From contig JAQTOZ010000005.1 of the NCBI GenBank assembly GCA_028713205.1, forward strand, positions 1-41,126: 41,126 nt of DNA. The letters are read 5' to 3'. Under the pieces are notes generated by a model, which had not been told where the DNA came from, did not search any database, and saw nothing but the letters and a program-made list of their open reading frames with translations. Within the stretch, counting starts at the first letter, position 1. Every line of letters starts with the position of its first letter. Origin of the DNA: Candidatus Omnitrophota bacterium (GTDB taxonomy: Bacteria > Omnitrophota > Omnitrophia > Omnitrophales > Aquincolibacteriaceae). Shown in pieces: positions 9,028-39,177 of this stretch. A program made the translations under genes and the position numbers.

Positions 9028-9072
9028 ACACCATCGCGGTTGACCATCATTCATTCGTATCTATTTCGCCTT

Positions 9073-15649: not shown

Positions 15650-16699
15650 TTATGCCGACCACTGAATGACGTAGCTGTTTTTGATTTGCGCCCAAACGGC
15701 CTCACAAAACTCCGCCGCAATTTGCAGACGCCCGTTTTGTCCCACGCGGGCAAACGTGGCATGGATCTGCTTCAGCAAGGCCGCGGCCGTAAAAGATTCG
15801 ATCAAATTCAAAGCGACCTGTAGGGCCCCGGGCCGGTTGTAATCCAGCGGAATAATATTTTCCCGGATCCCGTATTTTTCTTTCAAGCCATTGAGGAGTT
15901 TCACCGTATCCTGGGGCGAACCTAATCCCTCAAATAAAGATGCCTGGATAAAAATACGCTTCGGCGTCAAATTCCCCCATTCCAATTCGGTGAAATGAAC
16001 GCGTTTGCGATATTCGGTCAACAGCTTCTGAAGCTTGGGGACCCGGACATTTGCCAAGGAATAACGGTCCGCGCCTTCTATATATATATCAAAGGCCGGG
16101 TGCCGGTCCAAGAAAGCCAGGAGTTCGTCCAAACGTTCATCCGTCTTTCCCGGCTGAAGCATGGCAAGTTCCTGCGCGCGGATGAAAACGGCGGCCGGTG
16201 CCGTCATTTCATGAATCGGTTTCATGCGTGTCTCGGAACGGGAAAGCCCTCTGGACTCCGTCGCAAGAGCAGCTTTGAGTTCCTTCCAGGATGAAAAACC
16301 TAAAACACGGGCGGCTTTGGCTTTGTGCCGATTTGAAACTTTCTGGCCCGGCGCCCGCTGTTCCATCATACGGACAACGACCCGCTTCGATTCGGGCGTC
16401 AAATAGGAAAACGGTGTGGGTTGGTCCGAGGTCAGGGCAAACCAACGTTCGGGATCGGGACTAAATGTCAGGCCGTCTCTTTCCATGGCTTTTCTGTCAA
16501 ACGCAAGCCGCACCTTCGGCTCGCTGGGCGAATAACCTTCCCCGCCCGCCACGGCAATCGCATAATCTTCATGCTGGGCAAAATAAGTCCCGGCACGAAG
16601 CGTACCCGCCTTGACCATCATTCCCGGAATCGCTTTTTCTAAAGTTTCGTGATGCAAAATTTTTCCGAGGTCCTTACGTCGTGCCTGCCCGTCCGGCAG
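15650..16699 (-). other. Modules 11-12: C-terminal unknown domains
   Basis: Two small domains divided by RSETR (4092). The first has Trp-Phe-Ala-Leu-Thr-Ser-Asp-Gln-Pro; the second begins after Met-Lys-Pro-Ile and has Phe-Ile-Gln-Ala-Ser-Leu-Phe-Glu-Gly-Leu-Gly. I recognise neither family. Confidence 0.4.
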
Positions 16700-19600
16700 G
16701 CGGGTTTCGGACCGAGTATCTGTACCACTACGCCTCAGGTTGAAAACGATATCTGTTTGTTTGATCTCCTCGATTGAAAGCGGTTCGTGGTACTTCGGAC
16801 CGGGGCGACTGAGGCGAATGTTGTCCCAAGCACTATCTTCATTCCAATGGCGATGGAAGATCAAATGAGGCGGATGCGAAGAAAAATAGAGCCAGATTAT
16901 CAACTCCCCTGCACAATAGCAATTTCGGTCAACCCTTTCTGCCTCCTCAATTCCGATCCCCGTCACTGAATACCGAAGTTCTTCCGGAAGATCAGCTAAT
17001 TGTTCAAGTTGCTCCGGACTAAAAATATATTCAGCAGGGATAACAACGGTATTGGGGGCATCCCAATCAAGATCATCCCGCTGCCGGCTGCTGGCAAGAA
17101 GCCGAACCGGGATTTGAGCACGCTCTTTGGCATCCGCCATAGAATACGTTTTGGCTTTGATCCGGGATTGTCCGGTCTCCATCCACCTCATCAAATTCAT
17201 GACTATTTTTTCCATGGGCGCGTCCTGGGTCGTATGTGCCGCCGCTGCAGCTTTGAGTTCGGATATCGTAACTTTCACAACCGGCAGTTGATAGAGATGC
17301 GCCGCTAATTCTTCGGACCAGTCTTTGGTTTCGCTAAAACCACCCGGCCAAGTCGATTTCCCCAAAACAGAAGAATCATCAAACGACGAAGCATGATCCG
17401 TAAGCCAAATAATACCGTCCAGCCGGACAAAACCTTGTTTTTCCTCAAAACCTTCAACGCGATAATATCCCCGGTAGGGTTCTTCGGGAGGCTCATACGG
17501 AAGATTTTCTTTGACCGGATGTGAAGTCCTCATGCTCGTGGGTCGAACCATGAAAGGCAGACCCGCGATAAGGGATCTTTCACCTGCTGCATCTTGGGCC
17601 GGGCTGAAATAAGCCGCGACGGTATCATCGGACAAAAATTCGATCTTGCCGCCGGACACGGCGGTTAAATAATAGGTCAGCATTGACTTGCCTGACCCCA
17701 CATCTCCGATAATTAAAAACCCCCTCGCTGGCTGATCCGGAGATGCTCGATAAGCAACAAGATTTCCCCTCAACCAATGAGATTCGCTTTCTTTCAACGA
17801 CAGCAGCACGGGATCCTCTTTGCCGACAGCCTCCCAAAAAATATCAGCCACAGCCAAATCCTTCTCGCCTCTTTCCCGGCGCTCGATCAAGGAACGATAT
17901 AAATCGCCAAAGGAGTAAAGCTGGTTTGCCAAATCGATAAAAGCAGACAAATCACGGATTTCGGAACGCGTTAGGTCTTGGGGCTTGCGTCTTGGGTCTT
18001 GAGTCAGACTTTCCGTTGCGTCACGCCGCATCTCCGAGCGGGCTTCGGGTTCGGTCCGGTCCAGTTCCTGTTTCCGGGCATCGGCAACAATGCTTTCTAA
18101 AACGATCGAAATTCCATTCGCGGTACGTAAGAAAGCTTTCCTGTGCTCCGGCCATAACGTTGTTTTGAATGCTTCAAGCTGGACGATGGAATCCATGTTC
18201 TGCCGGATTAAAACACGTAAGTTGTCGGGGATATAACAAAAATTAGCGGCGAGTCGTTGTTCGAGATCTCCAATCTCGGCCGCATCTGCTTGTTCAGGAT
18301 GCAGGAGTAAAGCGCGAAGTCTTAAATACGCCAGTGCATAGCTCAAATCCGCATTCGCGCCGTTAATTTGATAATAAGCCCGCTGCCTCGTCCCGTCGAA
18401 ACGCTGGAATGGCGACGGGAGTGGCCAAAGCCGGCGCAAGCCCCGCGCTACCGATTTCGCATAACCCGTCTGGATTTGATCTGCGAAAAGTTCAAAATCA
18501 AGCAAGGCCTTCACGATCGTAGTCAATTTACCGAGCGTCATGGACTCTCCGGAAATGGCGGCATCCGCCACGTATGCGTCGACAACGCGTTGCCGGTTTT
18601 CGGCCAGCAGTTTAAGGCGGCCGGTTTCCTGAAAGAGTGTTTCGCGTAATCTCTCTCTGTCGAATGCTTTTTGACTACCGAATTCTTTTTGGCCCAGACG
18701 GATTCCGAATTTTTCCGTGTTATCGGTGACACCCCCCCACTGGAACATTGAAATCTCGAGGTGTTTGGTTTCTCCGAGGGCAAGACTTAACTGTGCGCTG
18801 ATTTCAACATCCCCGGCAATTAAATTTTCAATCTCTTGTTGCAACCACGCAGGCACACCGTCATCACCGGGCCGCACACTGGGAACGAAATTAATTTTAT
18901 TCATCAACACCGGATCGCGGACTTCGGACCGGGCAGATTGAGTGTCTAGCGAATAGCGCCCGCCTGTGGCGAGCGCGGCAGGGTTCGCGGTTAGTTTTTC
19001 GGTTTTTCCTAAACGTTCGCCGCTATCCGCTATCCGCTGTTTGGTACGCGTCTCCGAGCGTGCCGAAACAGCCTGACCGATGAACATTTCGAGTGAAAGC
19101 AGGGAATGCGGTGAACCGCCGATTTGAGCGACTTGGCGCGCGCCGATATGGACACGAAAGCCGGCGACCTCCATGGCCTCTTCGATTTCAGCGCGGGAAT
19201 AGCGGATGTAAAGCGTGCGTTCGTATTCTGCCTGGGTCAACGGTAAATTGGTCAAAGGCGATGTGGCCAAAATCCATCCGCCGTCGTTGAGTTGACGCCT
19301 CGCACTTCTAAAAAACCTGAAGCGGTCCGTCTGGCCGGCGACGTCAATCGCGATCACGAGATCATATTTTTCCTGCGGCTCCGCCAGTTCCTGAGCATCG
19401 GCGACAACGGTTTCAACTCCGATGGCCCGGGCAAATTCCGCATTGCGCTCGCTGATGTCCACCCCCTTCACGTGATGTCCGTCTTGAATCAACGCGGCCT
19501 CCAACTGCCCGCGTCCCGAACCGAGAGATAGAATTTTTAGTTTTCTGCCCAAAACCTGGCTTAACATATTAATTTTGGCGCGATACCAATTCAGAATTTG

Positions 19601-22600
19601 CGGATTCAGCTGCACCATACCGACCGGCGCTCCGAGTCCGTCCGGATACTTGCGAAATCCCTGATCATCAAAATGCCGGTAGAATTCTTTGACCTGCTCG
19701 GGCGTCGGAACTGGAAATTCGGGTTCGGAAGATGAGTTTGACTCACCCGGCCGCACGATACGAATCTCGGAGCGCACTTCAGGAGATATATCGCGAGCCG
19801 AATCCGCAGACAACGTATTGATCCGGTAAATGATAGCGGGCCGATCTGCATAACCGAATTTGACGCGTGCGGCTTCCTCCGGTGTCATGTCCAAATTTAC
19901 ATTCTCGGGCGAACTGAGGATTGTCACTTGATATTTCGAATCCGATTTGAGATAGCCCCCGAGCGATTCCAACACGAGAATTCCGCCGGTGACCAAATCG
20001 TCTTCGATATCCAAATTTTGCAAGCGGAACATTTCTCCGTCCCAAGCAACGTCATTGGAATAAGCCTTGTCCGGCGCTTTAAACAGTCCCCAATGCGCTT
20101 TGCCTCCGGTCCCGAACTTTTCGAGGTACTGTCGATAGAGAAGTTTGCCTTGGAGATCTTGCGTTTTCGATGAGACGCCGGAGACATAAATAATTTCGCG
20201 CGTTTTACCTTGATAATCAAATTGAATCAAATAAACATTGTCTTCTCCGGGCATAAGTTCCGGCCCCCTGATATTCCCCACGCCGATGGCCTGCAAGAGC
20301 TCCAGCTCCTTGATCAAAAATGGGCGAATGCCGTTCTGCTGTAAGATAGTCGTCCCGGCGAGTCCCCGCGTCATGGATTTCTTTGCAAGATATTCTGCGA
20401 CTTTGTCTGCGCCGGCATCTCCTTTGTCAAACTGCGCCTCGTCGACAAAAATAAACCGGTCGGTGTGCGGAAAGAGCCTTAAGGCGTTGGCAATATCGGC
20501 ACCGCCTGCAATGTAAAGTCCGGTAATCTTCCCATTGACCGCAGGCCGTGGACTATTTCGTTGAATCAACAGCGCAGCTTTTTGCAGATAGACGTCATTG
20601 TCCTCATCCCCGACCAGACCGATCCATTTGTCATGACGCATCTCTGAACGGACTTTACCTTTGATTTGAATTTTTTCCGGATCGCGGCCGAAATGTCGCA
20701 AGGCCGCGGGCCAGCTGCCGTATACCGCCGTGGCCCGGTTGAGCACCCCCCCCAGTTTGCGGCGCTGCATGGCAGCGGTACTGAGTTCTTCATCGCTCGA
20801 TCCGTCAATCACCGCCCGCATCGCAGCTTCGGTCCATTTTGTCTCCTTATGAGTTTTCCGGCGACTCATATCTTTGCGCCGTATGGACAAAACATCCGCC
20901 GCGGCCCAACCGCGCTTGACGGCATGACGCCTCATTTTCTGCAAGGCACCCCGTTTAACGTCCCGAATGCGCTGAGTTTTCGCGATACCTGTTTGGGCTG
21001 CGATTTCTTCATTGGTGTCCAAACGTAGCGTATCGATACCATAATCCAATCGAATCACTTTTCGTTGCTCATCGTCTAAAGTCTTTAGCAGTGCATTGAG
21101 ATGCCGAAGAGCAATTCCGGAATCCTCGCTCAGGCGGGCTCGCCCGGTAATCCCGCGGCGGAACGCATCAAAAGCAAAACGACGGAAACGCATCAAAGAG
21201 GCATTCCCCGGTTTACTCTTGGCTTTCCAAACACTACGGTCCCGGGCAATGCGTCTCCGGATCTGATTCAAAGACCGTGCCGGACGTTCACCCAACCCGA
21301 AATGAACGCTCAAATATTTTCTTTCCAAAGGACGGAGGCCAAACCAGATTTCACGCAAAAGCCGCATGCGGGCATTCGCCGGTTTCCGTTTTTCGCGGAT
21401 CTCCGCAACCATTTGCCTGAGCTCCGCTATGGTCACGCCGACATTTTCCGGAATCTCCGACATGACTTTCGGACGATAAGGCGAACGGCCGAAGCCTTGT
21501 TCGGCCAATTCCCTGCCTTCGATCAGATTTTTCAAATTCTCGCGTGCGCGAAGCAATAATTGTCCGAGGCGGCCGCGGCTGTACGGTCTCCCCCGGTAGG
21601 CAACTCCCAGCTCGAAAAGCATTTGCGCAAATCCTTTCCTTTTCCGCGCGCGATGACGGTTGACACCGAAACGCAATTCCAGCATCAATCGCTGATTCAC
21701 GGGCAATCGTTCCCATAGCTCCGGGGTAATCGCATCTACCGGAACTCCGATTTTTTCGGCGATGAGCTCAAGCCCGGGCCGGGCAGCTTTCAAACGTTGA
21801 ATCGCGTGATAAGTCAAACCGATAAGCCGTCTTTCACTTTGCATAACAACGCCGGCGACACTTAGCTGCTGCAATCTTTCTTTGATGCTGGAACGTTCCG
21901 GAGTATCCGGCGGGAAAGCGCAAACGATGATTTTCCAATCTTTCTCCGACAAGGCATGACGCAGCGCCGGATCTTTAAGCCGTTCGACCGCAATACCGGT
22001 ATCCTGATGCAAGGTGTCCCAATTGACAATTTCTTCATCGCCCGTCACTGTGGATGCCGCTACCGTGACCGTCGCAATCCCATCAGGTCGCCCGGATGAT
22101 AGTTCAGCAAGACCCGCCGCAACCGCAAGCGACAGAGCAATTTCAGTTGCATCTTCCGCAGGAACAACCGGCGCTGGTTTTTCGGTAAGCATTGTTGCCG
22201 GTGCCGGGCGTTTTTGAGAAATGATCGTCAGCCGCGTCCCTTTAATTTCATCGGGCGTAATATTCCATAGATAAGGCGGGATACCCGCCGTGCGCAGGCG
22301 CGTGCGGGCCTGGTCCAACAAATCCAGCAAACGCCCGCTGTGGGAAGCCACGTGCAAAATGAGCGTACTTCCGTTTGCGTCGACGAGATAAATCTCGGAC
22401 ATGGCGTTGGCATCATCATAAATAAATTTGCGCAAATACTGCATGACCGCCGGTGTATCAGCAAATTGCCCTTCCTCTAAAATTTTCCTCGGTGTTTTCG
22501 CTACCGCCTTTCGCTCTTGCCATGGATGCGGGCTCAAAACTCTTTCATCCGGAACCACATCGTCATCAGGTTCTTCCTCCTGTCCTACCTCGTCCCTCCG

Positions 22601-25600
22601 AACCGATTCGACATCTCCGTCTTGCGACGGCCATTTCCGGTTTTTCTTTTTTGATTTTCCTTCCGGTTTATCACGGCGGACTTCGGACCGGGCGAATTGA
22701 GTGTCTAGCGAATAGCGTTTAGCGGTTAGTTTTTCGGTTTTTCCTAAACGCTTCACGCTATCCGCTATCCGCTGCTTTGTTCGTGTCTCCGATCTCGTTT
22801 CGAGTATCGGCTTAAAAACAATGGTTGTGCGTTTGATATCCTCAACCTTAAGTGGCACGCGAAATTCCGGAGCAAGCGTCGGAGACCAATAAGTATCCTC
22901 ATCCCAGTCGCGGGAATAAATACCAACCGGCGTATGCGAAGCAAAATAAAGCCGGATGGTTAAATCTCCTTTTCGATCACCCCACTTGTCGACAATGACG
23001 TCGTCCTCGATTTCGATTCCCGTCACGGAATCCCGCAATTCCGCCGGTAATGCGGTAAGTTGTTCGAGTTGCGCCGGATTAAAAATCGCATCAGCCCGAG
23101 TCATGTCGAAACGCGGCTTGGCCCATACGAAATCCTCGCGCTGCCGGCGGCTGGTAACGATGCATACCGGAATTTCGGCGCGCTCTAACGGATTCGCCAA
23201 AGAATATTGCCGCACCGGCGTTCGCATCGCGTCGTTTTCCATCCATCCAAACAAGTCCCGTGTCATTTGTTCCATGGGTGCGCGTTGATTTGAACGTGCC
23301 GCCGCCGCGGCCGCCTCAAGTTCGGGAATCGCAACTTTCAAAACCGGAAGACCTTCCAGGCGGGTTGTAAGATCATCAGACCAATGGTCGGTCTCGGAAT
23401 CACCGGCCGGCCAGGTCGATTTTTTCAGGGACAAGAAATTTTCAAACCGTCCGGCGTTATTCGTAAGCCAGATGATGCCGTCCAGCCGTACAAATCCACG
23501 TGTTTCCCTAAAATCTTCGACACGGTAATAGCCGCGGTAATTTTCTTCGGGTTCTTCATACGGGAGACCTTCCCGAACCGGATATGATGTCAACATCGCG
23601 AAAGGCTCGATCATAAACGGAAGGCCGGCAATCAGAAACTTGTCTTCTGCCACATTTTGAGACGGCCCAAAATAAGTCGCCACGGTGTCCTCCACCATAA
23701 ATTCCACTTTGCCTCCCGATTCAGCAGCTAAATAATAGGCCAACATGGTTTTTCCGGAACCGACATCACCGACGATCAAATAACCGTGGGCTGGTTGATC
23801 CGGTGATGCACGGTAGGTAACCAGATTCCCCGTCAGCCAATGGGGTTCGCTGTCTTTCAAAACCGATAACTCGGCATCCTTTCCGAGAGCGGTTTCCCAA
23901 AACACATCATTCACCGCCAAACCGCTTTCACCGTGTTCTCGGCGGTCGATCAATGTTCGCCATGTTTCTCCGAACGGGTAGAGCCGGTCAGCCAGCGCGA
24001 TATACGACGCGAGTGTGCGGGTTTCGGCCCGCCCGAAAGAAAAAACGGGCACCGGAGCACCGGGCACACGTGCACCTGTCCCTGGTGTTCTGGCGTTCTG
24101 GTGCTCTGGTGTTCGTCGCGTCTCGGACCGGGAAAAGTTAGCGGTTAGCGCAGAGCGGGTAGTGTCTAATTTTTCGGTCTGTTCCAAACGCTCGCCGCTC
24201 ACCGCTATCCGCTGTTTGACTTGTACCTCCGACCTTGTCCATTTGAGAATTTGCTCTTTCTTGGCCAAAAGAACTTCACGTATTTTTTTCATTTCCGGCC
24301 TCATCAGCACCAGAACTTCGCGCGGAATCTCCCGCCGCTCTTCGATCGTTTCACCGTAGTACGCCTCGGCGGGAAGTTTTCTCGTTTCCTGCGTCCTGGC
24401 TTCTATGATTCCGTGAGGAACGGCGACATCGCGGCGCAAACGTTCCGAAAGCATATAGGGCAGAAAATCATCGCTTTGCGCGGGAAAGTCATACGGGATA
24501 ATTTTAGACCGTGCCTCGGGCAAAAGCACAGGCTCCATCGCTTGAAACTGGCCGCGGTCCATGATAATCGATTGAATGTCCCGCAGTTCCACCGTCATGC
24601 CGGACGCCAGCGAAAAATACCGTTCATGATAGTCACCGCTGAGACTGATCGAGGCATGGCCGTACCGGGCAAGCTTGTTGAAATAATCCACCGAAAAAAC
24701 AAGAATCAAGGGGCGATGCCCTTCCCGCAGATTCGCATACCATAATCCGCTCACATCGCTGAGCTCATTGCCCATCCCGGAATGAGAATGGGTATCTGTT
24801 CCCGCATACCGGTACCGTCCCCACGTCGAAAGTGCCCGGGCTTCTTCATCGGTGGCGGTGACACGGAACACCTGCCCCTGGGATAGATAAAAAAAAGACA
24901 AAAATTGCGATTCCGCCAAGACACGGAAACGCACGGACTCCTCGACGCCGGCCCATTCGCGAATGGCCGCGGTCAACGCTTGCCGATTGTTCCCGAAGCC
25001 GGCAAAAAAATCGATCGTCTCGTTCAGTGCCGCCTCGGCGAAAGCACCGATCCCTTGCGACCAAAAGACATAGTCCCTCATATCGGGCGTCTCCGCACTC
25101 TTCGGACCGGTATCAAGCCGCATCTCGGACCTGGCAACTTGTTGATCTTCGCTGTTCCGCTCCAAGCGAAAGCCGTTTTCGGTCTGCGAAGAAAGGACCG
25201 GCACCAAATCCAGACCGGCATACATCGCAAAACGGAACAAAGGCGAATATTTCCAAACTTCACGCTCTTCGTTTTTTTCAAAAATAAAGTTGTTCAGGGC
25301 ATGAAACCCGATCGAAGCCATAAGCGATTGCGCGGTAAGCCGGCCGTAAGAAACGGCCTTTTGGTATGGAATATCATAATTCACCTGCGACTCCGTATAG
25401 ACCCAATGGCACAGGGCAAACAAATCATGAGAGATCCGCAACGCCGTGTGAAAAGGCTCCCCCCATTTGAGTTTGACGAACATCGGCAGATAATACCTGA
25501 ATAAAACCTCTTCCAGGAGGGGTGCTGCGAGAATGTCACGAATCGCGATCCTCTCGGCTACACCCGCGATCAAGCTTTCGCGTTCCAGTTGCAAATTCAA

Positions 25601-28513: not shown

Positions 28514-28548
28514 AACCCCATATTTACCAATGAGATAAAAAGTATTAA

Positions 28549-28577
28549 AGTGTGCCCGCTGACGCATTCTTTGTCAA
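28549..28577 (-). promoter_or_regulatory. Sigma70-like promoter of the giant gene
   Basis: TTGACA (28572-28577), 17-nt spacer, CACACT (28549-28554) on the minus strand. It overlaps an upstream in-frame ATG at 28565-28567, so the ATG at 28513 is the probable start, with a leader of roughly 30 nt. Confidence 0.6.
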
Positions 28578-28727: not shown

Positions 28728-28741
28728 GTTATGAACTGCTT

Positions 28742-29272
28742 CTAATTACTGGGCTGCTCGGTTTCTTGCTCTTCCTGATGATGTTTTCTGCCGTGATTCT
28801 TCCATTTCGCTTTGAAGGCTTCTCGCTTCTCTTCCATTTTCTGATGGAGCTGTTTGAATTGCTCCGGTGTCAAAATGGTACGGATCTCGAGAATTCCCTC
28901 GACACGGTTCTTCACTTTCTGGGCACTGAACGCCGAAAGTTCATTCGTCAATTGATCGATACGCGCGCGGTCGAGCTCGGGTTTATCAAGCTCCGCACGA
29001 AGCTCACTGCGTTTTGTCTCGATCCCTTTGAAAATCTCTTCCTGGCGCTGTTTCATACTCGCATGCTGGTCTTCGATCTGTTTTTGCTGTGCTTCGGTCA
29101 GGCCGAGATCGGCCGTCATTTTTTTCATCATCGCTTCCCGTTTCTGATGAAATTTTCCTTTTCCGTCTTTACCGTTTTCTCCCCAACCCTCGAAGGCGTA
29201 AGCCGGCGTACTGACAAGCGCGACACCCAACAAAGCCACCCAAATCATTTGTCGATTCATTCGATGTTTCAT
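28742..29272 (-). CDS. Spy/CpxP-like (LTXXQ) periplasmic chaperone
   Basis: 176 residues. The ATG at 29272 has a perfect AAGGAGG 8 nt upstream. Signal peptide (Met-Asn-Arg-Gln, hydrophobic, Tyr-Ala-Phe) then a helical, charged protein with two LTxxQ motifs: Leu-Thr-Glu-Ala-Gln-Gln (about 60) and Leu-Thr-Pro-Glu-Gln-Phe (about 130). This is the Spy/CpxP family, ATP-independent periplasmic chaperones that sense and damp envelope stress. Downstream of the sigma/anti-sigma pair on the same strand, so probably a target of that sigma. An internal RSELR here is part of a helix and, unlike elsewhere, not at a domain edge. Confidence 0.8.
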   Translation of the reverse strand: MKHRMNRQMIWVALLGVALVSTPAYAFEGWGENGKDGKGKFHQKREAMMKKMTADLGLTEAQQKQIEDQHASMKQRQEEIFKGIETKRSELRAELDKPELDRARIDQLTNELSAFSAQKVKNRVEGILEIRTILTPEQFKQLHQKMEEKREAFKAKWKNHGRKHHQEEQETEQPSN

Positions 29273-29341
29273 AACGTTATCCTCCTTGATTGCTTTCTTC
29301 ATCTTAGACATCCGGCTCCGCCAAAAAGTTTCCGAAAACTT

Positions 29342-29845
29342 TCAACTAAAAAAGTATTGCTCGACGGAAGTCCCCAAAGAGCCGTTGCCGGTATCGGGGT
29401 CCTGCCCGTTCTCGCTGATGCCCATCAAATTGAGCATTTGATCCCCCAAATAATTGCTCACGCTCGAGGAGCGCGGCGGGACATGCGTCAAAAGGACGAT
29501 CAACAAAACCGCAAACGCCAATCCGGCCCCGCCCATAACGATTCTGGGAACGGTCAGAATTGGATCCAAAAACGCACGCGTCCGCTCCCAAAAACTCCCG
29601 GAGGAAACCGCGGCCGCTTGTCTCGCCTCCAGCGACTCCTTGATCTTCAGCCAAACGGATTCGGGCGGCTGAAGCGGTTGGGCTTCCCGGAAAGACCGCG
29701 CCAACGCTTCAATCGTACGCTCCCGGAACTCCCGGCAAAGGGTACACGCGCCAAAATGCGTCTCGATGTCACGCGGAAGCTTTGCCGGCAACTTTTCTTC
29801 CGCATAAGCACGCACCAGCGTTTCCTGAACTTTTTTACAATTCAT
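29342..29845 (-). CDS. Anti-sigma factor (zf-HC2 type)
   Basis: 167 residues. Zinc-binding anti-sigma domain: Cys3, His30, Cys34, Cys37 (His-x3-Cys-x2-Cys). One transmembrane helix (about 103-123), then a periplasmic tail. The start overlaps the sigma factor's 3' end by 11 nt. It probably sequesters the adjacent ECF sigma and releases it upon envelope stress. Confidence 0.85.
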   Translation of the reverse strand: MNCKKVQETLVRAYAEEKLPAKLPRDIETHFGACTLCREFRERTIEALARSFREAQPLQPPESVWLKIKESLEARQAAAVSSGSFWERTRAFLDPILTVPRIVMGGAGLAFAVLLIVLLTHVPPRSSSVSNYLGDQMLNLMGISENGQDPDTGNGSLGTSVEQYFFS

Positions 29846-30398
29846 AGCTCACCCCGCTTTTTCTGGCATAGGCCACCAGCGCTTCCCGGGCACGTTTCAA
29901 CCGGGAGCGAACGGTATTGATATTGATTTTCAAAACCTCGGCCATTTCCTCGTAACTCAAATTTTCGATCTCTCTTAAAATCATGCAGGCCCGTTGTTCG
30001 GGCGATAGAGCGGAAAGCAGGGACTGGACCGCCGCCTCCCGTTCGCTCTGTTCCAGGCGGCCCCGTTCATCCGGAGGCACGCTTTGGGTCAAGATGACGG
30101 AGTCGTAATCGGTACGGCGGTTTCTTTCCTTGGACAAACGTCTGCCGCAATTGATCGCCGTATTGACGGCGATGCGGTAAATCCAGGTCTTCAGCGAGGA
30201 CCGGTTTTCGAATTCATGAAGTTTTTCGTAAACTTTCATGAACACGTCCTGCGTGACCTCCTCCGCTGACGCACTGTCGCGGACCACCCGCAACGCCACG
30301 CTATAAACAAAGCCGGCATAGGCATCATAAATTTCTTTAAACGCTGTCATCTCTCCGGCCGTAGCGCGCTCCAGGATATCTTGCGACAACTCATTCAT
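29835..30398 (-). CDS. ECF RNA polymerase sigma factor (RpoE-like)
   Basis: 188 residues. Region 2: Phe-Lys-Glu-Ile-Tyr-Asp-Ala-Tyr, Asp-Val-Phe-Met-Lys-Val-Tyr and Lys-Thr-Trp-Ile-Tyr-Arg-Ile-Ala; region 4: Leu-Ser-Pro-Glu-Gln-Arg, Glu-Ile-Glu-Asn-Leu-Ser-Tyr-Glu-Glu-Met-Ala and Thr-Val-Arg-Ser-Arg-Leu-Lys-Arg-Ala-Arg. It directs RNA polymerase to stress promoters. The ATG at 30398 has TAGGTG upstream; an in-frame extension to 30548 has no family similarity. A TATTAT-rich stretch upstream (about 30430-30440) may be the promoter. Confidence 0.9.
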   Translation of the reverse strand: MNELSQDILERATAGEMTAFKEIYDAYAGFVYSVALRVVRDSASAEEVTQDVFMKVYEKLHEFENRSSLKTWIYRIAVNTAINCGRRLSKERNRRTDYDSVILTQSVPPDERGRLEQSEREAAVQSLLSALSPEQRACMILREIENLSYEEMAEVLKININTVRSRLKRAREALVAYARKSGVSYEL

Positions 30399-30571
30399 CG
30401 TTGCACCTACCGGACGCCGTCCGCAGGGAGCGGTCATATAATACCGACGTCTCCCTGCAAACGGCATCCCGTCATTGACTTTATCAGCATAACTCAAAGA
30501 TCCGTAGCCCCCTAGAAAAAATTTCTCGTTCATCATGACACCCCTCAAGGCTCACCGTCGCACCTTTTCCT

Positions 30572-31345
30572 TCATGCATTCCCTTTGGCATACAACATTT
30601 TCAATTGCTCTTCCGTCGGCTTTTCGGGATAGAACTCGCCGGAAGGGCCGACATACCCCTTGGCCGACTTGGTCAAGGTCACCGGCGTAAAACTTCCGTT
30701 AGCATTCGGAACATTGACGGTCATTTCTTCCGGCTCGTCTTCAACGGGCGGTCTCGCCGCCTGCGAATTGAGCGCATACATGGCCTTCAGTTGGTCCGCC
30801 GTCGGGTAGTCCGGATAAAATTCTCCCCTGGGCCCGGTATAACCATTGCTGTACTTTTGCAACACCACCGGCATATAACTGCCGTTGGCGTTCGGAACAT
30901 TCACCACCACTGTTTTCTCCGGCGCTTCCACGGAAACCGGATTGGAAACCACCACCGGCGCGGGAGGATTGACGACGGCGTAACCGGCCGGTTCTTTGAC
31001 ATAATAGGTGTTGTTGTAAAAATAGTAGACATCGCCACCGTGGTCGATTTCCCGGTAGCCAACCGGCAGGCTGGCAATGACGGCACCGAACGGTGCTGCC
31101 ACCATAAAAAATCCCGACGGCGTGGGCCGGTAAAAGCAACCGTGATACTGATAATAACGGTCCCCCCTGACGTCGATCGTCACATACCCGCGCGGTAAAT
31201 GCGGGACATAATGCTCGTACCGGGGGGAAGAATGCCCCCGACGGCCGTCGGGCCGCGCGAAAGCTTCGGTCCCGTTGATCCCCGTCAAAACAAGCAGTGC
31301 CCCCAGAAAAAACATTCCAAGCGAAATTGATTTTTGGTTCTTCAT
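30572..31345 (-). CDS. Secreted DUF6515-like protein with two C-terminal repeats
   Basis: 257 residues. Signal peptide (Leu-Gly-Met-Phe-Phe-Leu-Gly-Ala-Leu-Leu-Val-Leu, cleavage near Ala-Phe-Ala). A Tyr-Tyr-Gln-Tyr-His-Gly-Cys-Phe-Tyr-Arg-Pro segment and a Tyr-Tyr-Phe-Tyr-Asn-Asn-Thr-Tyr-Tyr-Val segment, each before Gly-Tyr/Phe, fit DUF6515. Two copies of Val-Asn-Val-Pro-Asn-Ala-Asn-Gly-Ser ... Gly-Glu-Phe-Tyr-Pro ... Leu-Lys follow. Function unknown; envelope localisation likely. The start at 31345 has AAAGGAAA 9 nt upstream; ATGs at 31351 and 31375 are alternatives. Upstream of the sigma gene on the same strand. Confidence 0.75.
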   Translation of the reverse strand: MKNQKSISLGMFFLGALLVLTGINGTEAFARPDGRRGHSSPRYEHYVPHLPRGYVTIDVRGDRYYQYHGCFYRPTPSGFFMVAAPFGAVIASLPVGYREIDHGGDVYYFYNNTYYVKEPAGYAVVNPPAPVVVSNPVSVEAPEKTVVVNVPNANGSYMPVVLQKYSNGYTGPRGEFYPDYPTADQLKAMYALNSQAARPPVEDEPEEMTVNVPNANGSFTPVTLTKSAKGYVGPSGEFYPEKPTEEQLKMLYAKGNA

Positions 31346-31429
31346 TTTCATTTTCCTTTGTTTGAGATGTTTCACTTTGGTATTCCCTGCGAATCCGTAA
31401 TCCGACTCTATCGCTTAGACAAAGGCCTC

Positions 31430-31530: not shown

Positions 31531-31627
31531 ATCACCGCGCCCATGACTCGTGACGGGCAGTCCACCTGCATTTTCTTGCTCCATGTATCGGCCGTTCGCC
31601 GTCTCTCTCACCCTTTGTCGCACACAA

Positions 31628-34600
31628 TTATGCCGCTATTCTAACCACCAAACTCGAGCGAAAAGCATGAAGCTGATCTCTTAAAACAAAATCCACAACT
31701 TGAAAAAAACCGTTTCGCTGACCGATTCCTGGTATCGTTTTGTCAGAAACCGCAAGAAGCAGAGCAGCCCAAACATCCCGGTCCTCCAAAAGCAGAAATG
31801 GCACGATCCCTTGCGGTAAGATCCCTGCGGTTTCGGCCTGAACGCCGTGCGTGAAGAGCATCACGCGGCAAGCTCTTTCTTTTTGACCCATGGGTCTTAA
31901 GGCCTGCGAAGAGGCTTGAAAAAAGACCGGTCTCCCCTTAAAAAGCTTTGTTAATTCCAAATCGGCGGGCTCGCCGTCCGTTAAGACAAACAACTTTCCG
32001 CGCCCCCCTTTTAATCGTTCGCTCAAAGCAAATATTTCTGTTCGCAATTCGGACCGCGACCTGAGAGTTTTCTGGTTGACATATAAAGAGAACGGAATGT
32101 TTTTTTGTGCAACGGCATCTTCGACAAGATGCCCATCCGTCCGTAATTCCGACCGCTGGTCCGGCGTCCGGGATTCAAAACCTATCCGGGACAGGACCCT
32201 CCGCAGATATCCATCGTCATCGCGGATCCTGCCACTGGCGACATCGCCGGAAACACGCGCCACTAATTCGAGTACACGCTCATCCGTTCTTTTGGCGATG
32301 GCCTCGAGCTCCTCTTTTGAAGCGCTTTTCTGCATGGCCCAGCCGAGAGCTTCCATTAAATCAAGATAAAGAAGGCCGTTTTCTTCCAGATGTCGCTGAC
32401 ACCGGCGGACATTGCCATCTTTCTTGGCAGGATCGAAAATTTTGGATTTGACCTTCAGCGCGTAAAAAATCGCGGCCGTTTTTTTGCTGATGGCATCCAC
32501 CCTACGGGCGATCTCGGCGACCGCATTGTCCCTGAAACGGAACCCGTACGACATGGAATTGACATCTTCCGCTCCCAGCAGTTTTACGTCCCCTAACCGC
32601 TGGACCATCTTCGAACCGTGGTTGATCAACATCGGCCGGAAGGGCCACTGATTTCCCTCGATCAGGTCGTTCTCGCGAAAATACCGTATGTTCTCCAGCA
32701 TTTCGTCAATCGTCAGCTCCGGGTCGAACATGATGAATCCGATGTCGACCCCTATTCCCATTTCCCGCAATAGCCGGATGGCATCGGTCACCTCGGATAA
32801 TTCCAAGCCCCGGTTGTACCGTTGGAGTTGAGATCGATTGCCTGTCTCGGCGCCGATAAACACCCGGACGAGGCCGGCCTTTTGAAGCCGCAACAACATT
32901 TGCCGGACCGGACCGTTCTGATGGTCCGGATCATTTTTCCGGTAGATGATGCTGGGCCGCGTAAAAATCCTGAACGAAAATTTGATGCGGTACTTTTCTC
33001 TCAGTTTCTCGATACCTTCGGCGATTTTGACGATCCTTTCGATTTTTTCGTCTTCGCGCCCGCCCAGGAAATCATCGTCCGAAAATTCGACTTCCGTGAC
33101 GCCGCGTGACATCGCCGCATCCAGAGTCGCGAGGACTCTCTCGACCGTAAATCCTTCCCAGCTTGCCGTACTTCCGCTTTCGACGACCAGCCCGCCCCTG
33201 CGAAAGGACGTCCGGGTGCAATAAGAGCAACCTCCCCAGGGACATCCTCTGGATGCCTGAACCTGCACGTTGCCGCCCCGGCCGGCGATGGCCGCATAGC
33301 TATTGGAAGCCGGAAGATGTTTCAAGTAAACCAAGTTGGGTGCCGTAACAGGCGTCGATATCATCTCTCCGGTTTCTTTGTCCCGATAGATGGCACTCGG
33401 CACATCCGATAGTTTTGACTCACCCTGAGCGACCCTAACAAGACTCCGCATCGCCAGTTCACCTTCCCCTCGTATCACAATGCCTTGCGGACACAGTTCA
33501 ATGAATTTTTCGGGAATATAGGTCGGGATCTGATTGCCGAAGACCGCCATGATTTTTCTTTCCAGGATGGCCGGCTCCGCATTTAACTTTTTGGCCAGCA
33601 ACTCCACAAGCGCCATCGAACCGGGCTGAACGGAAATACCGATGATGTCCGGAGAACCGGACATCGCTTGATCCCATATCGTATCGAGCTCCTGCGGCTC
33701 ATTCGTCCAAAGCATGCTCACGTCGACTTGTTTTCCGAATTCTCCTTTCAAATCACCTGCCAGGGTTTCAAGCGACAGGTTATTCCACACGTTATAATGC
33801 GTTGGAGATCCGACGCCGATAAAACAAACCTTGATGGGAGGAGGCGATAGATGGGATTGCTCTCCACGCACTTCGGCCCGGTAAACGGCCGGCGGGTCTC
33901 GCGACACCCGTTGCGGCATCCTTCTTAAAGCCAGTTCCATTTCTCGAAGAGAAGGCTTTCTGGGCAGAGCTCGTACAATTCCCGCAAGCCGCTCCATTTC
34001 AGACAGAAACCCGGTAACGGCCTTTGGGTTCCACTGCATGAGGACAAGGTCCCCGGGATTTTTCGTTGCCTGGGGCACAAGTTGAATCCCCGGTGTCCGG
34101 TGAATGCCCCGGGCCATGAGCTCGCGATAGTATTGTTGATGCTTTGAACTTGTGGAACTCATGCGGGGGATGATAAGCGCATAGGAAAATCCGAGATTAT
34201 TAAATATCCTTTTCAGGTTTTCGCTGTGGAACCCTCCGAAAACCAGCACCGCAGTCCCGGCGTCCGGATCTTTGGCAAAAGCGGCCAGCCTTTCCTCGAC
34301 CGCCCGGTCACGCGCACGGGCGCATTCATAAAAATCAAGGGCATACCCGATCGAGTCCTCCCAGCGTTTGGACAGGACCGTGGACTGCCGCATGGACCCC
34401 GCGAGAAAATCAGCCAGCTTTTCAGTGCTGAATCCCTCCAAAGAATCCCGTAGCTCATCGTATTCTTCCGCCATGATCTGGATCCGGCTGAGTTTTTTGA
34501 GGGCACGAATGATTTCATCATAGCGAAAGATCTCCCGCTGGGTTTTAGACGCAAGATAACGGGCCGCCCAAGCCTCTTCATATCCCTGAATTTCCTTAAA

Positions 34601-35404
34601 AAGTGCCGCCGGATCCAGCGCGTCGGTTTTTTTGATGGCGCTCGCATCCTCCGCGTGACCGATCGAAAGCAACCGCCCCACCTGTGGAAGATTTTCCGCC
34701 GTCCCGGATTTTTCTTCCCAGGAAACCATCCGCTTCAAATAGTCATAGAAATCCAGGGTCCCCGAATCGAATCGCTTCTTGAGCTCCATCCATCGTTTGA
34801 CCTCGCGGGGGAATTGACGGCGGATGAGATTTCCGACAGCTTCGGCCATGGCCTCCAAATCTTTTTCGATCGCCTCTTGCCGCTCGCTGAGAGACTGATA
34901 GGCGGCAATATTTTTCCAATAAAGTTCCGTGCAGTCGATTCCGACCAAACGGAAGCCTTTTCTCCGGTTGATGTGCGCGTACTCAGCGCCGCTAATCCGC
35001 AGCCGGTTCATGAAATAGTAAGAAACCCGTTCTCTTATTTCCGGGTCATGGATCTTCCTGAAATACCGGTCCGTGGGAATAAGGCCGTCATACCCTTCTT
35101 CGAAAACAATCCCAACACCTTGGTCTTCGACAAAATACCGGATGATCTTCGCAATATGCGCCTGGACCTCCAGGGAATCATGGGCATCCTGGATAAAAAA
35201 AATGGTCTTGCCGGAAACACCCCTGTGAAACTCGCTGATACGTCCTAATTCAGGCGAAATCTGAAGAAAGGGTTCTACCGGAACGGCTGGAGGCGGCATG
35301 GCACCGGAATGGTCTGCCAAGCATGGCATATTGCCGCCTTGGATCATAAAAAGAATGAGCAAAGTCTTCAGGACGATGCCCCGCTTGGTTTTTGACTTGA
35401 TCAT
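31628..35404 (-). CDS. Secreted TIKI-like/B12-binding/radical SAM multidomain protein
   Basis: 1258 residues; the ATG at 35404 follows a GTG by one codon. A Lys/Arg start and hydrophobic stretch ending Pro-Cys-Leu-Ala look like a signal peptide. Residues 65-429 copy module 1 of the giant protein (Ile-Gln-Asp-Ala-His-Asp-Ser; Phe-Gly-Gly-Phe-His). RAEVR at 509 then a B12-binding-like region (524-699) and a radical SAM domain (713-939) with Cys721-x4-Cys726-x2-Cys729, a looser spacing than Cx3Cx2C. Gly-Ala-Glu-Thr-Gly (about 852) is typical of the fold. RSELR occurs at 1084 and 1117, followed by a short Val-Leu-Thr-Asp-Gly-Glu-Pro domain. Radical chemistry needs reduced iron-sulphur, so export is puzzling. 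A LacI operator lies 39-58 bp upstream. Confidence 0.85.
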   Translation of the reverse strand: MIKSKTKRGIVLKTLLILFMIQGGNMPCLADHSGAMPPPAVPVEPFLQISPELGRISEFHRGVSGKTIFFIQDAHDSLEVQAHIAKIIRYFVEDQGVGIVFEEGYDGLIPTDRYFRKIHDPEIRERVSYYFMNRLRISGAEYAHINRRKGFRLVGIDCTELYWKNIAAYQSLSERQEAIEKDLEAMAEAVGNLIRRQFPREVKRWMELKKRFDSGTLDFYDYLKRMVSWEEKSGTAENLPQVGRLLSIGHAEDASAIKKTDALDPAALFKEIQGYEEAWAARYLASKTQREIFRYDEIIRALKKLSRIQIMAEEYDELRDSLEGFSTEKLADFLAGSMRQSTVLSKRWEDSIGYALDFYECARARDRAVEERLAAFAKDPDAGTAVLVFGGFHSENLKRIFNNLGFSYALIIPRMSSTSSKHQQYYRELMARGIHRTPGIQLVPQATKNPGDLVLMQWNPKAVTGFLSEMERLAGIVRALPRKPSLREMELALRRMPQRVSRDPPAVYRAEVRGEQSHLSPPPIKVCFIGVGSPTHYNVWNNLSLETLAGDLKGEFGKQVDVSMLWTNEPQELDTIWDQAMSGSPDIIGISVQPGSMALVELLAKKLNAEPAILERKIMAVFGNQIPTYIPEKFIELCPQGIVIRGEGELAMRSLVRVAQGESKLSDVPSAIYRDKETGEMISTPVTAPNLVYLKHLPASNSYAAIAGRGGNVQVQASRGCPWGGCSYCTRTSFRRGGLVVESGSTASWEGFTVERVLATLDAAMSRGVTEVEFSDDDFLGGREDEKIERIVKIAEGIEKLREKYRIKFSFRIFTRPSIIYRKNDPDHQNGPVRQMLLRLQKAGLVRVFIGAETGNRSQLQRYNRGLELSEVTDAIRLLREMGIGVDIGFIMFDPELTIDEMLENIRYFRENDLIEGNQWPFRPMLINHGSKMVQRLGDVKLLGAEDVNSMSYGFRFRDNAVAEIARRVDAISKKTAAIFYALKVKSKIFDPAKKDGNVRRCQRHLEENGLLYLDLMEALGWAMQKSASKEELEAIAKRTDERVLELVARVSGDVASGRIRDDDGYLRRVLSRIGFESRTPDQRSELRTDGHLVEDAVAQKNIPFSLYVNQKTLRSRSELRTEIFALSERLKGGRGKLFVLTDGEPADLELTKLFKGRPVFFQASSQALRPMGQKERACRVMLFTHGVQAETAGILPQGIVPFLLLEDRDVWAALLLAVSDKTIPGIGQRNGFFQVVDFVLRDQLHAFRSSLVVRIAA
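32588..33268 (-). other. Radical SAM domain of the secreted protein
   Basis: Contains the Cys-x4-Cys-x2-Cys cluster (residues 721, 726, 729), Glu-Val-Glu-Phe-Ser-Asp-Asp-Asp-Phe-Leu, then Ile-Gly-Ala-Glu-Thr-Gly and Asp-Ile-Gly-Phe-Ile-Met-Phe-Asp-Pro. The B12-binding-like part precedes it at 33308-33835. Confidence 0.7.
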
Positions 35405-35442
35405 CACTTATTGCCCCATTCCCGTTGAATATGAATGCCATA

Positions 35443-35462
35443 AAATTCAAACGTTTGAATTT
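35443..35462. promoter_or_regulatory. LacI-family operator upstream of the radical SAM gene
   Basis: AAATTCAAACGTTTGAATTT, a perfect 20-bp palindrome with the CG centre typical of LacI/GalR sites. It lies in the 80-bp gap before the radical SAM gene, and the same core precedes lacI. Confidence 0.8.
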
Positions 35463-35483
35463 TTCTTGAAAAAAAAGGTCCGT

Positions 35484-36521: not shown

Positions 36522-36549
36522 ATTTTCCTTAACGGAGGTTTTTCTATAA

Positions 36550-36565
36550 ATTCAAACGTTTGAAT
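36550..36565. promoter_or_regulatory. LacI-family operator upstream of lacI
   Basis: ATTCAAACGTTTGAAT, a perfect 16-bp palindrome directly 3' of the -10, matching the core of the 35443 site. Position over the transcript start fits repression. Confidence 0.8.
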
Positions 36566-36566
36566 A

Positions 36567-36595
36567 AAAATACCCTATAACCTTTTGTTTGTCAA
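36567..36595 (-). promoter_or_regulatory. Sigma70-like promoter of lacI
   Basis: TTGACA (36590-36595), 17-nt spacer, TATTTT (36567-36572). Confidence 0.7.
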
Positions 36596-36639
36596 ATTCT
36601 GTTAATCAATTTTCTTAACTTATGCTTTGATAATAGGTT

Positions 36640-36817
36640 GGAATCAGCGCTCAGCGATTAGCCAAACTCTGATCTTTCAGTAACGGCGTGACGGTGCTTC
36701 GGCGAATTTACCCCAATACTCCCATACACCCTCTCTCCGTTACTTGGTCGGCGTTTCCCCTTGTCTCTTGTCTCTCGCCCCATGCCTCTGTCTTGGGTCT
36801 TGAGACTTGCGTCTCGT
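36640..36817. repeat. Non-coding word repeats (TAGCG, GTAACGGAG, GAGACAAG, AAGACCC types)
   Basis: The gap after the histidine kinase gene has no gene. It holds short degenerate words: CAGCGCTCAGCGATTAGC; GTATGGGAG and GTAACGGAG (complement); CTTGTCTCTTGTCTCTCGC; and TCTTGGGTCTTGAG, which recurs in the giant gene. A related stretch lies at 39340-39415. Confidence 0.5.
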
Positions 36818-38149
36818 TTACGCCGCCGGAGGATTGAAAGGCAAGGTGAAACGGAAGGACGTACCGCGGTTGAGTTCGGATTCCACCCAAATCTTGCCGC
36901 CGTGGGCAAGCACAATCTCTTTGGCGATGGACAATCCCAGGCCGGTACCGCCGGCTTTGCGTTCGCGCGCATTTTTGAGCTGCTCGAATTTTTCAAACAC
37001 TTTGGGGATTTCTTCCGGGGACATGCCGCAACCCGTGTCGGTCACGCTCACTTGAACGGACTCCCCCTGACGCCGTGTGGTCACGCGGATAGAACCTTGA
37101 TCGGTAAACTTACCGGCATTATTGATGAGGTTGATCAAGACCTGGATGATCCGGTCTTTATCGAAAACAAGTTTCGGCAACGACGCGTCCGGGTCCGCGA
37201 TCAGTTCCAGTCCTTTTTGCGTGAGCGTGTTTTGCATCATCTGGATCACATCCGAGACCGTGGCGTTGATATCGTTTTCGCTCATTTCAAAGACCATTTT
37301 TCCGGCCTCGAATTTTTGCACCGTCAGGATGTCCGTGGAGATCCGGTTGAGCCGCACGATATAATCTTTCGCGACACCGATCCAGTGTTTCTGATCCGGA
37401 GTCAGAGGGCCCAGAAGGCCGTCCCCGATCAGATCAATGGCGCCTTGAATCGCCGCCAACGGCGAGCGAATCTCGTGAGAGGCCATCGAGACGAACCGGT
37501 CCTTCATATCCATCGCCTCGTTGAGTTTGTCTTCGGCCTCTTTGATCTTGGTCATATCACTGCCGATGCACAGGATTTCCCGGTGTTTCTTGTCCGCCTG
37601 GAACGACTTGTTCGTCCACAGGACCCAGACCCGCTCGCCGTTTTTCTTCATGTTTTCATTGATGTTGGTTTTGTAATTTTCGGAATCCGTGATGATATCG
37701 CTGATCATGTCATGCATGTCCTTGCCGGTGGTTTCCGTCTCGGGCACAATCGTCCCGATCACGCTCTTGCCGAGGATCTCGTCTTCCGAAAATCCGAAAA
37801 ACTCCTGGGCAAATTTATTGAAGAACGTGACATTCCCTTGGTCGTTCATTCTCAGGATAATACTGTTGGAAAATTGCACCAGCTCGCGGTAATTTTTTTC
37901 CACATGGATCTTGGAAGCGACGGCAAATTGCAATGCCGCGCCGAATAGCAGGAAGACAGCGATCATCAAGAGGCGCACGGCGATTTCTTGAGGAGCGGAA
38001 GGCAGCAGATGGGAATAAAAACTGCCGTCGCCCAACAAAACATTGCTCAGCGACCGCAGCCCCCAAATCACGATGCTGACGAAAACAAACGAAAGCAGGA
38101 TATGGTCCATCACCCAAGTCGAGAAACGGGATATCCATTTTTCTTTCAT
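36818..38149 (-). CDS. PAS-domain sensor histidine kinase (orphan)
   Basis: 443 residues. Two membrane helices (about 17-40 and 57-79), a PAS domain (about 88-205), HisKA with Ser-His-Glu-Ile-Arg-Ser-Pro-Leu (His225), and HATPase with Asn-Asn-Ala-Gly-Lys-Phe, Asp-Thr-Gly-Cys-Gly-Met and Gly-Gly-Thr-Gly-Leu-Gly-Leu-Ser. It autophosphorylates on His225 in answer to a signal read by PAS or the membrane. No response regulator is next to it. The ribosome site is weak (GGAG about 13 nt upstream). Confidence 0.9.
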   Translation of the reverse strand: MKEKWISRFSTWVMDHILLSFVFVSIVIWGLRSLSNVLLGDGSFYSHLLPSAPQEIAVRLLMIAVFLLFGAALQFAVASKIHVEKNYRELVQFSNSIILRMNDQGNVTFFNKFAQEFFGFSEDEILGKSVIGTIVPETETTGKDMHDMISDIITDSENYKTNINENMKKNGERVWVLWTNKSFQADKKHREILCIGSDMTKIKEAEDKLNEAMDMKDRFVSMASHEIRSPLAAIQGAIDLIGDGLLGPLTPDQKHWIGVAKDYIVRLNRISTDILTVQKFEAGKMVFEMSENDINATVSDVIQMMQNTLTQKGLELIADPDASLPKLVFDKDRIIQVLINLINNAGKFTDQGSIRVTTRRQGESVQVSVTDTGCGMSPEEIPKVFEKFEQLKNARERKAGGTGLGLSIAKEIVLAHGGKIWVESELNRGTSFRFTLPFNPPAA

Positions 38150-38235
38150 GGCGATACTCTATCTCCAATCCGCGGCAGCTTCAAATTATTTATGCCGAAG
38201 GGATCCGTGGACGGCCATGATCCCGGGAACCATGC

Positions 38236-39177
38236 TCAGGTCATCGCGGAAGGTGAGGACAACTCATCCAAAGCGGGAAGGATCGTTGTTGGGATCCCAT
38301 CGGTATCCGAGGCCAAGAGCGCTTTTCGCAAAGAATGCTCGATCCGGAATTCACTCCGGGACTGCATCGCAAGATAAGACCGGACCCTGCTTTTCCAACC
38401 CGCAAGCCAGCGGCTTTCGTTGCGTTCAGGCGGTGAATTCGCCACACGCCTGATCACCACCGACTCGGCCGCCCTGACAAATTCACCGATGACATCCTGA
38501 TCCGGATCCGTGATTTTCATCTCTTCCAACACCTGAAGCAGCCCCCATCCTTGCCCGTGATAGCGCTCACCCGGGAATACTCCGTCGCCGTTGAAATTGA
38601 CATAATCCACAAGCGGGTACAAACCTCCGCCGGTTTGCAGTATCAAAGAAAGTTTTTGCCGGATGTCGCCTTCGGAGTCTTGCGAGACCGCCTTGAGCAT
38701 CCTTGGAATCGATCGCCTTAAACGCTCGACAAGAAATTCCGTTTGCATCGTTTTGGTATCGGATAAAAATTCCCTTAATAAATCCAGATCCCCGTTCCGG
38801 ATATCTTCGTTAAAGGCATCCCTCGTGGCCCAAGGCGCATGCCGGTCTTTTAATGACCGGAACCACTCGGGAAGCTGAACGCCTTTACTTTCAAAAAAGG
38901 ATAACAGCTCGGGAAAACTTTCCCTGAAGGGACCCTCCTGGCCGGCCGGATACCAGATGAAGTGTCCAATCCCGAGGGAAGGGAAATTCTCTCCTTCATT
39001 CCAGCCAAGAAGTTCTGAATCTTTTCCGCCGCATTCGTTATCAAAAATGAGCTCACCGATCAAATCGACTTCCGAGCGAAATCCCGTCACCGATTCGGCA
39101 CAGGACTTTCCGTCTGCAAAAAGCAAGACGCAACCGATCAATAACAGGAATACCATCTTTTTTCTGACAGCGTTCAT
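38236..39177 (-). CDS. Secreted lysozyme-like family protein with C-terminal RSEFR
   Basis: 313 residues; the ATG at 39177 gives a signal peptide (Met-Val-Phe-Leu-Leu-Leu-Ile-Gly-Cys-Val-Leu-Leu-Phe). The domain has Asn-Glu-Cys-Gly-Gly (47-51), Trp-Asn-Glu-Gly-Glu (59-63), Ser-Leu-Gly-Ile-Gly-His-Phe-Ile-Trp-Tyr-Pro (67-77) and Gly-Gln-Gly-Trp-Gly-Leu-Leu-Gln-Val (208-216). I recall this pattern from uncharacterised secreted proteins that look lysozyme-like; a peptidoglycan role is an inference. RSEFR at 274-278 separates a 35-residue tail from the domain, as in the two multimodular proteins. GGGG just upstream is a weak ribosome site. Confidence 0.7.
   Translation of the reverse strand: MNAVRKKMVFLLLIGCVLLFADGKSCAESVTGFRSEVDLIGELIFDNECGGKDSELLGWNEGENFPSLGIGHFIWYPAGQEGPFRESFPELLSFFESKGVQLPEWFRSLKDRHAPWATRDAFNEDIRNGDLDLLREFLSDTKTMQTEFLVERLRRSIPRMLKAVSQDSEGDIRQKLSLILQTGGGLYPLVDYVNFNGDGVFPGERYHGQGWGLLQVLEEMKITDPDQDVIGEFVRAAESVVIRRVANSPPERNESRWLAGWKSRVRSYLAMQSRSEFRIEHSLRKALLASDTDGIPTTILPALDELSSPSAMT

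Follow-up and report, generated by a model that had tools for sequence, protein, structure and literature searches.

Polyproteins of viruses and prohormones are processed at repeated cleavage sites, with one short recognition peptide per joint, and MARTX toxins are processed after Leu by an inositol-phosphate-activated cysteine protease domain and delivered via RTX repeats. In the phylum Omnitrophota, giant open reading frames (ORFs) of more than 20 kb with few annotated domains were described in Velamenicoccus archaeovorus, and a surface or predatory role was proposed for them (Seymour et al. 2023, PMC10066038). A literature search found no account of processed Omnitrophota polyproteins. The present analysis concerns a 41,126-nucleotide stretch (the window) of contig JAQTOZ010000005.1 from the Candidatus Omnitrophota bacterium assembly GCA_028713205.1, in which the ORFs P0001, P0002 and P0003 carry the pentapeptide RSExR. 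A preliminary description of this DNA had proposed that RSExR marks module boundaries in all three products, where exported precursors would be cut by a dibasic/Arg-specific protease, or else that it acts as a sorting tag. The literature search on RSExR and its RSEMR, RSEVR, RSEIR and RSETR forms retrieved nothing relevant.

The data support the view that, in giant exported proteins, RSExR stands at the joints between modules. With a probability of about 0.5, P0001 and P0002 are exported polyprotein-like precursors whose joints are read by a trans-acting factor, likely an endoprotease. The carriers share one plan consisting of a signal peptide, a TIKI/erythromycin-esterase-like N-terminal domain (NTD), enzyme-like modules and a C-terminal domain (CTD) ending in -[A/S]A. 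The features of P0001 are as follows:

15650..28567 (-): P0001, exported modular precursor of 4305 residues, probable start M19 at 28513
28430..28513 (-): signal peptide, residues 19-46, ...LTAAVAAICLLFNGPTLYA-G, hydrophobic core preceding the NTD
27140..28378 (-): TIKI/Ere-like NTD, residues 64-476, with invariant H94, E122, R387 and H415
26999..27013 (-): RSEMR (519), joint between NTD and linker
26894..26908 (-): RSETR (554)
26078..26092 (-): RSEVR (826)
25133..26092 (-): module 826-1145, Rce1-like (CAAX protease family)
25118..25132 (-): RSEMR (1146)
24221..24235 (-): variant RSEVQ (1445)
24116..24130 (-): RSETR (1480)
24017..24031 (-): variant RAETR (1513), opening the first P-loop module
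22796..24031 (-): module 1513-1924, first P-loop module
22781..22795 (-): RSETR (1925), closing the first P-loop module
22676..22690 (-): RSEVR (1960)
20651..22690 (-): module 1960-2639, holding a sigma-70 region-4-like stretch (E=9e-4, under the Pfam cut-off)
20636..20650 (-): RSEMR (2640)
19760..19774 (-): RSEIR (2932)
19061..19774 (-): module 2932-3169, methyltransferase
19046..19060 (-): RSETR (3170)
18932..19060 (-): short linker flanked by RSExR, one of four (the others at 22691-22795, 24131-24235 and 26909-27013)
18917..18931 (-): RSEVR (3213)
18026..18040 (-): RSEMR (3510)
17954..17968 (-): RSEIR (3534), opening the second P-loop module
16715..17968 (-): module 3534-3951, second P-loop module
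16700..16714 (-): RSETR (3952), closing the second P-loop module
16226..16240 (-): RSETR (4110), joint to the CTD
15653..16240 (-): CTD, residues 4110-4305, terminating in ...IQWSA-COOH

All 15 exact copies and the variants RSEVQ and RAETR announced for P0001 in the preliminary description were present, its residue numbers being 18 lower, as counted from the ATG at residue 19. The two P-loop modules were 53% identical, both kept the P-loop signatures and their homology spanned from joint to joint, i.e. from RAETR (1513) to RSETR (1925) in the first and from RSEIR (3534) to RSETR (3952) in the second. The short linkers corresponded to a family of 116-nucleotide direct repeats at positions 18948, 22683, 24123 and 26901. 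P0002, in which two RSELR and one RAEVR had rightly been reported, represents a minimal version of the architecture, whereas P0003 is placed outside the system:

31628..35407 (-): P0002, 1259 residues, signal peptide-NTD-RAEVR-[B12 radical SAM]-RSELR-linker-RSELR-CTD, end ...VRIAA
33866..33880 (-): RAEVR (510)
32141..32155 (-): RSELR (1085)
32042..32056 (-): RSELR (1118), joint to the CTD
38236..39198 (-): P0003, with a single RSEFR and without the NTD

The RSEFR reported for P0003 does exist, but its role as a third carrier was ruled out, as the copy is at chance level (one of three found in shorter ORFs) and the protein does not have the shared NTD.

The source genome comprises 3.15 Mb in 295 contigs, and the frequency of RSExR was compared with chance in the window and 100 further contigs (1.015 Mb, 775 ORFs). 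Some of these 101 contigs were picked from pattern-search flags, which biased the absolute density of RSExR upward; such a selection does not account for the difference between long and short ORFs of the same contigs. Out of 127 copies, 124 were located in 18 ORFs of at least 1000 residues, where about 1.2 were expected, whereas 743 shorter ORFs held 3 copies against 3.9 expected and the 13 other ORFs of at least 1000 residues held none. The claimed excess was thus confirmed, and RSExR was not equally common in normal-sized ORFs of the cytoplasmic type, the condition that the preliminary description had named as refuting its proposal. In the whole genome, the DNA pattern encoding RSExR occurred 413 times, compared with 85 for a reversed control, and it was also raised in most of 20 relatives. 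RSExR is not peculiar to the window but part of a protein system that extends across the genome and the order. In the sampled third of the genome, which was partly chosen for such contigs, the RSExR giants amounted to about 17% of the residues of all predicted proteins.

The positions of the motif agreed with the claim that it falls between domains. None of 20 mapped Pfam domains was interrupted by a motif, compared with 7.9 expected (P=0.0005). In an all-against-all comparison of 53 giants, the motif lay within 20 residues of the end of a homology 81 times versus 28 at random (maximum of 50 in 200 trials); the cores of homologies held 31 copies, compared with 135 at random. Disorder propensity was highest at the motif. 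The spacing of RSExR was bimodal, with 34 of 118 intervals shorter than 60 residues, 5 of 60-150 and 79 of at least 150 residues; the short intervals were linkers of variable sequence, some of which recurred as DNA repeats. The modules assigned by Pfam in the giants were entire enzymes or signalling units, namely GT4, NAD-dependent epimerase, DUF218, GNAT, PP2C, FHA, RNase III-like, GH77, LOG, Rce1, methyltransferases and B12 radical SAM. Independent modules are separated by a recurrent peptide, as in a processed polyprotein. A phosphomutase module of genome G044 kept its signatures TASHNP, DPDADR and RPSGTE. One RSExR protein without an NTD, L038:3644-7120(+), starts inside a glycosyltransferase, which is likely due to a frameshift or assembly break because the frame directly upstream ends at 3646.

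Comparison across the order revealed that the joint peptide is lineage-specific, a new result of this analysis. All genomes named among the matches are metagenome-assembled genomes (MAGs). RSE.R was the strongest short pattern found de novo in the giants of G000, G004, G008-G012, G014, G029 and G034, and local forms were recognised in G030 (RSELR only), G042 (RSEVR/RAEAR), G006 (R[SA]E[TK]R) and G005 (R[APST]E[LM]R). While RSExR serves most families of the order, it was absent from family f7, in which A[A/S/G]SLG occupied the joints (A.SLG found 15 times versus 0.3 expected), and in family f2 the joints carried [A/S]GFG[A/V/S] (GFGA found 14 times versus 0.14 expected); these motifs rest on four giants in f7, together with a genome-wide pattern count, and on two in f2. 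In that count, performed for one codon form of AxSLG, enrichment was detected only in the three f7 genomes (41, 63 and 44 versus 7, 10 and 20 in controls), and the form was depleted in five other genomes. Swapped joints in precursors that are otherwise homologous were seen, for example, in L222 (G044:C87), ORF 1081-11224(-), and in L056, 9982-20239(+), with A[A/S/G]SLG and [A/S]GFGA.

A homologous CTD comes after AKSLG in f7 and after RSELR in G030 of family f1, and NTD subtypes 0 and 1 were each paired with RSExR or AxSLG depending on the genome. The motif thus follows the genome and not the NTD subtype, which points to a genome-encoded reader acting in trans; such a reader would explain the lineage code best.

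The NTD, about 420 residues long, directly follows the signal peptide, which was detected by a crude hydrophobicity test in 63 of 68 relatives with a complete N terminus. Its AlphaFold model (predicted local distance difference test, pLDDT, 89.8) showed a core of alternating strands and helices, with the best Foldseek matches to EreC 6xcs (probability 0.96), 3b55, ChaN 2g5g and HopBA1 5t09, all of them proteins of the TIKI/Ere superfamily, at E-values of 0.014 or more and low template modelling (TM) scores. ChaN of the Tiki superfamily was the commonest, weak Pfam match, reached by 5 of 48 members with E-values no higher than 0.1, and a profile search against PDB sequences gave no matches. In P0001 numbering, H94, Q100, E122, G123, Y381, R387, GGFH (412-415) and P435 were invariant in 69 sequences. 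The TIKI endopeptidase RRSP possesses a 2His/2Glu set of His-3902, Glu-3900, Glu-3930 and His-4030 (PMC6254334). The equivalent set was present in the NTD, with H94, E122 and H415 each conserved at 100%, E122 located 28 residues after the His as in RRSP (3902/3930), and Asp92 (99%; QDAH, D92-x-H94) instead of the first Glu. Judged by these residues, the NTD probably retains an intact hydrolase site of the TIKI type.

The NTD was present in 47 of 47 genomes of the order, at the head of open frames whose lengths ranged from about 250 to 24,000 residues. Across the phylum, 85 of the 145 sampled genomes contained it. Its relatives were Omnitrophota MAGs save one short, weak match in Candidatus Firestonebacteria (L075, JAAXVQ010000017.1), in which the start of the same signal peptide and NTD lies at a contig edge. 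NTD-headed frames were noted in G005:C88 (23964 residues), G018:C1 (24618 residues) and G045:C26 (16199 residues).

At the opposite end, all complete members but one ended in Ala, usually as -AA or -SA, the exception being G027_C12 with a run of Ns in its C-terminal sequence; among 614 control ORFs, 56 ended in A and 14 in [A/S]A. The terminal -[A/S]A is a feature separate from RSExR. It resembles a C-terminal recognition tag, perhaps for a PDZ or tail-specific protease (in the window at 15653-15661(-) and 31631-31639(-)). The CTD of about 190 residues was common to many members and usually began just past the last motif; its model (pLDDT 67) was too weak for a fold to be assigned and gave no convincing Foldseek match. 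RSExR does not behave as a C-terminal sorting tag (PEP-CTERM, LPXTG or the CTD type of the type IX secretion system, T9SS), of which each protein has a single terminal copy, as it is internal and occurs 15 times exactly in P0001 and as many as 21 times in relatives.

In the proposed mechanism, a Sec signal peptide would direct the export of a precursor composed of a TIKI/Ere-type head, a series of enzyme-derived modules, each folded on its own, and the -[A/S]A CTD. The genome-encoded trans reader would recognise a short exposed peptide at every joint, i.e. RSExR here, AxSLG in f7 and GFGA in f2. Most likely it would be an endoprotease, perhaps the TIKI-like NTDs themselves, which after export would cut the precursor into modules and free the short linkers between paired motifs. 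Endoproteolytic maturation is favoured because of the exposed joints, the paired sites around disposable linkers, the co-variation of the site with the genome and the putative hydrolase site of the NTD. The architecture, the positions of the joints, the constraint on the peptide, its swapping between lineages and its dependence on the genome are shown by the data; the trans reader, the cleavage, when it would occur and what would become of the modules are inferred. As NTD subtype and joint peptide were uncorrelated, the NTD would have to act as a protease in trans, or another protease would do so. The broader proposal of a maturation code, in which a genome-specific pentapeptide co-evolves with a trans protease and each genome has dozens of multi-enzyme polyproteins, some as long as about 24,000 residues, that are exported and cut into separate proteins outside the cytoplasm, is tentative and falls a little short of even odds.

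Several observations weigh against a proteolytic reader. Clostripain (C11) was not found in the source genome in a protease search that covered C11 and C25 only, and gingipain (C25) was found in none of 20 genomes, a weak result since the C25 control matched nowhere. The dibasic/Arg-specific protease of the preliminary description is disfavoured by these two negative searches and, along with any gingipain- or clostripain-type enzyme, because Arg does not occur in joints throughout, the sister families using the Arg-free AxSLG (f7) and GFGA (f2) in the same architecture; the earlier interpretation as a whole is thus partly supported. RSELR, AASLG and AGFGA are so unlike one another that a single protease lineage needs large shifts in specificity. 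No clear motif was detected in several genomes (G016, G002, G025). Moreover, the last helix of the CTD, although no joint, repeatedly contains strings resembling R[SA]ExR, e.g. in L041 (RSELR 16 residues before the end), L225, L230 and L240; they may reflect the composition of an R/E-rich helix or be real sites. Finally, the uniformity of the motif within a genome could partly come from linker copying, with Ser codons strongly biased to TCN.

The strongest rival explanation assumes that a binding or transpeptidase-like partner uses the joint peptide for docking, anchoring or covalent attachment and that the giants remain intact and form a surface coat or scaffold. A role as coat or adhesins has been proposed for the giant proteins of Velamenicoccus (PMC10066038), the motif is exposed between folded units and its uniformity within a genome suits any trans reader. 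Some modules also look catalytically eroded by their sequences. The RNase III module has Ala in place of the Glu of ERLEFLGD, the GH77 module showed just one of the active-site motifs expected, and both families are also present as better-scoring stand-alone genes, so that part of the modules may serve as no more than folded beads. However, paired motifs around short variable linkers, which make up 34 of the 118 spacings, are better explained by cleavage, and the motif stands at nearly every joint, including those between the NTD and the first module and before the CTD. An intact coat or scaffold is considered rather unlikely.

According to another explanation, the motif is a by-product of the growth of the giants, in which module-linker cassettes were copied and shuffled by recombination within the motif DNA, and has little function. 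Some linkers are indeed recurrent and resemble DNA repeats, such as the 116-nucleotide family. The Ser codons of RSExR are TCN in 120 cases and AGY in 4 in the source genome and mostly AGT in the f7 motif, and the motif copies within a genome therefore probably share ancestry. Nevertheless, the 15-mers encoding the motif were distinct in 119 of 124 cases in the source genome, 28 of 31 in G030 and 15 of 15 in f7, and it is therefore the peptide that is kept, as the preliminary description had argued from varied codons. The position x accepts T, M, L, I, V, S or A, and the sole common variant is Ser to Ala (RAExR). Around these fixed R, S, E and R residues, the flanks of 121 copies were unconserved save for weak preferences for A just before and R just after, and neutral copies would be expected to diverge in protein too. 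Such codon variety also disfavours a DNA-recognition or recombination site as the sole cause of the motif. Cassette copying with little function is rated as distinctly improbable. A chance or composition artefact of very long R/S/E-rich proteins, though the giants are long and the P0003 copy is indeed due to chance, is already refuted by the roughly 100-fold excess over composition in the source-genome giants, the absence of RSExR from the 13 other long ORFs and its rank as the top de novo pattern in many independent genomes, leaving it a negligible probability.

Between P0001 and P0002, the region 28742-31375(-) encodes a Metal_resist/LTXXQ (CpxP-like) protein, a sigma-70 family factor and a DUF6515 protein. 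This gene set resembles an envelope-stress set and adjoins the exported giants. Elsewhere in the window, a 60-nucleotide spaced direct repeat is present in five copies at 2251-2610, and a 147-nucleotide direct repeat with 90% identity is located outside large ORFs at 11541-11687 and 15424-15570.

For the Omnitrophota giant ORFs, so far functionally obscure, these results provide a common anatomy for many of them and a testable reading rule. Cleavage at the joints would mean that the numbers of genes and proteins counted in these bacteria are wrong, and it would make the exported enzyme-derived proteins candidates for a part in the predatory or host-dependent way of life that has been proposed for the phylum.

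The Velamenicoccus giants resemble the proteins described here in their phylum, great length and few annotated domains. They differ in that no common NTD, peptide at the joints, -[A/S]A ending or lineage code was found for them in the passages of the account that were searched (PMC10066038), and many members of the present family encode enzymes of the cytoplasmic type. With the TIKI/Ere/ChaN superfamily, the NTD shares a model that matches its members, the H/E/H set and the 28-residue His-Glu spacing of RRSP, but it is distant, has Asp as the first acid and a long helical insertion, and is always N-terminal in a modular precursor. MARTX toxins are likewise long exported chains of separate effector modules, and their RRSP module family has the TIKI fold (PMC6254334); however, none of the MARTX processing and delivery parts was seen here, the NTD is N-terminal and one peptide is used at every joint. 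As in viral and prohormone polyproteins, the linkers between paired sites appear disposable and site and reader would co-vary between lineages. The lineage-specific joint peptides also offer a natural experiment in protease-substrate co-evolution. The difference is that the precursors are bacterial, number dozens per genome and carry many different enzyme modules. The maturation code, if true, would correspond in bacteria, at the scale of a proteome, to the processing of viral polyproteins or prohormones.

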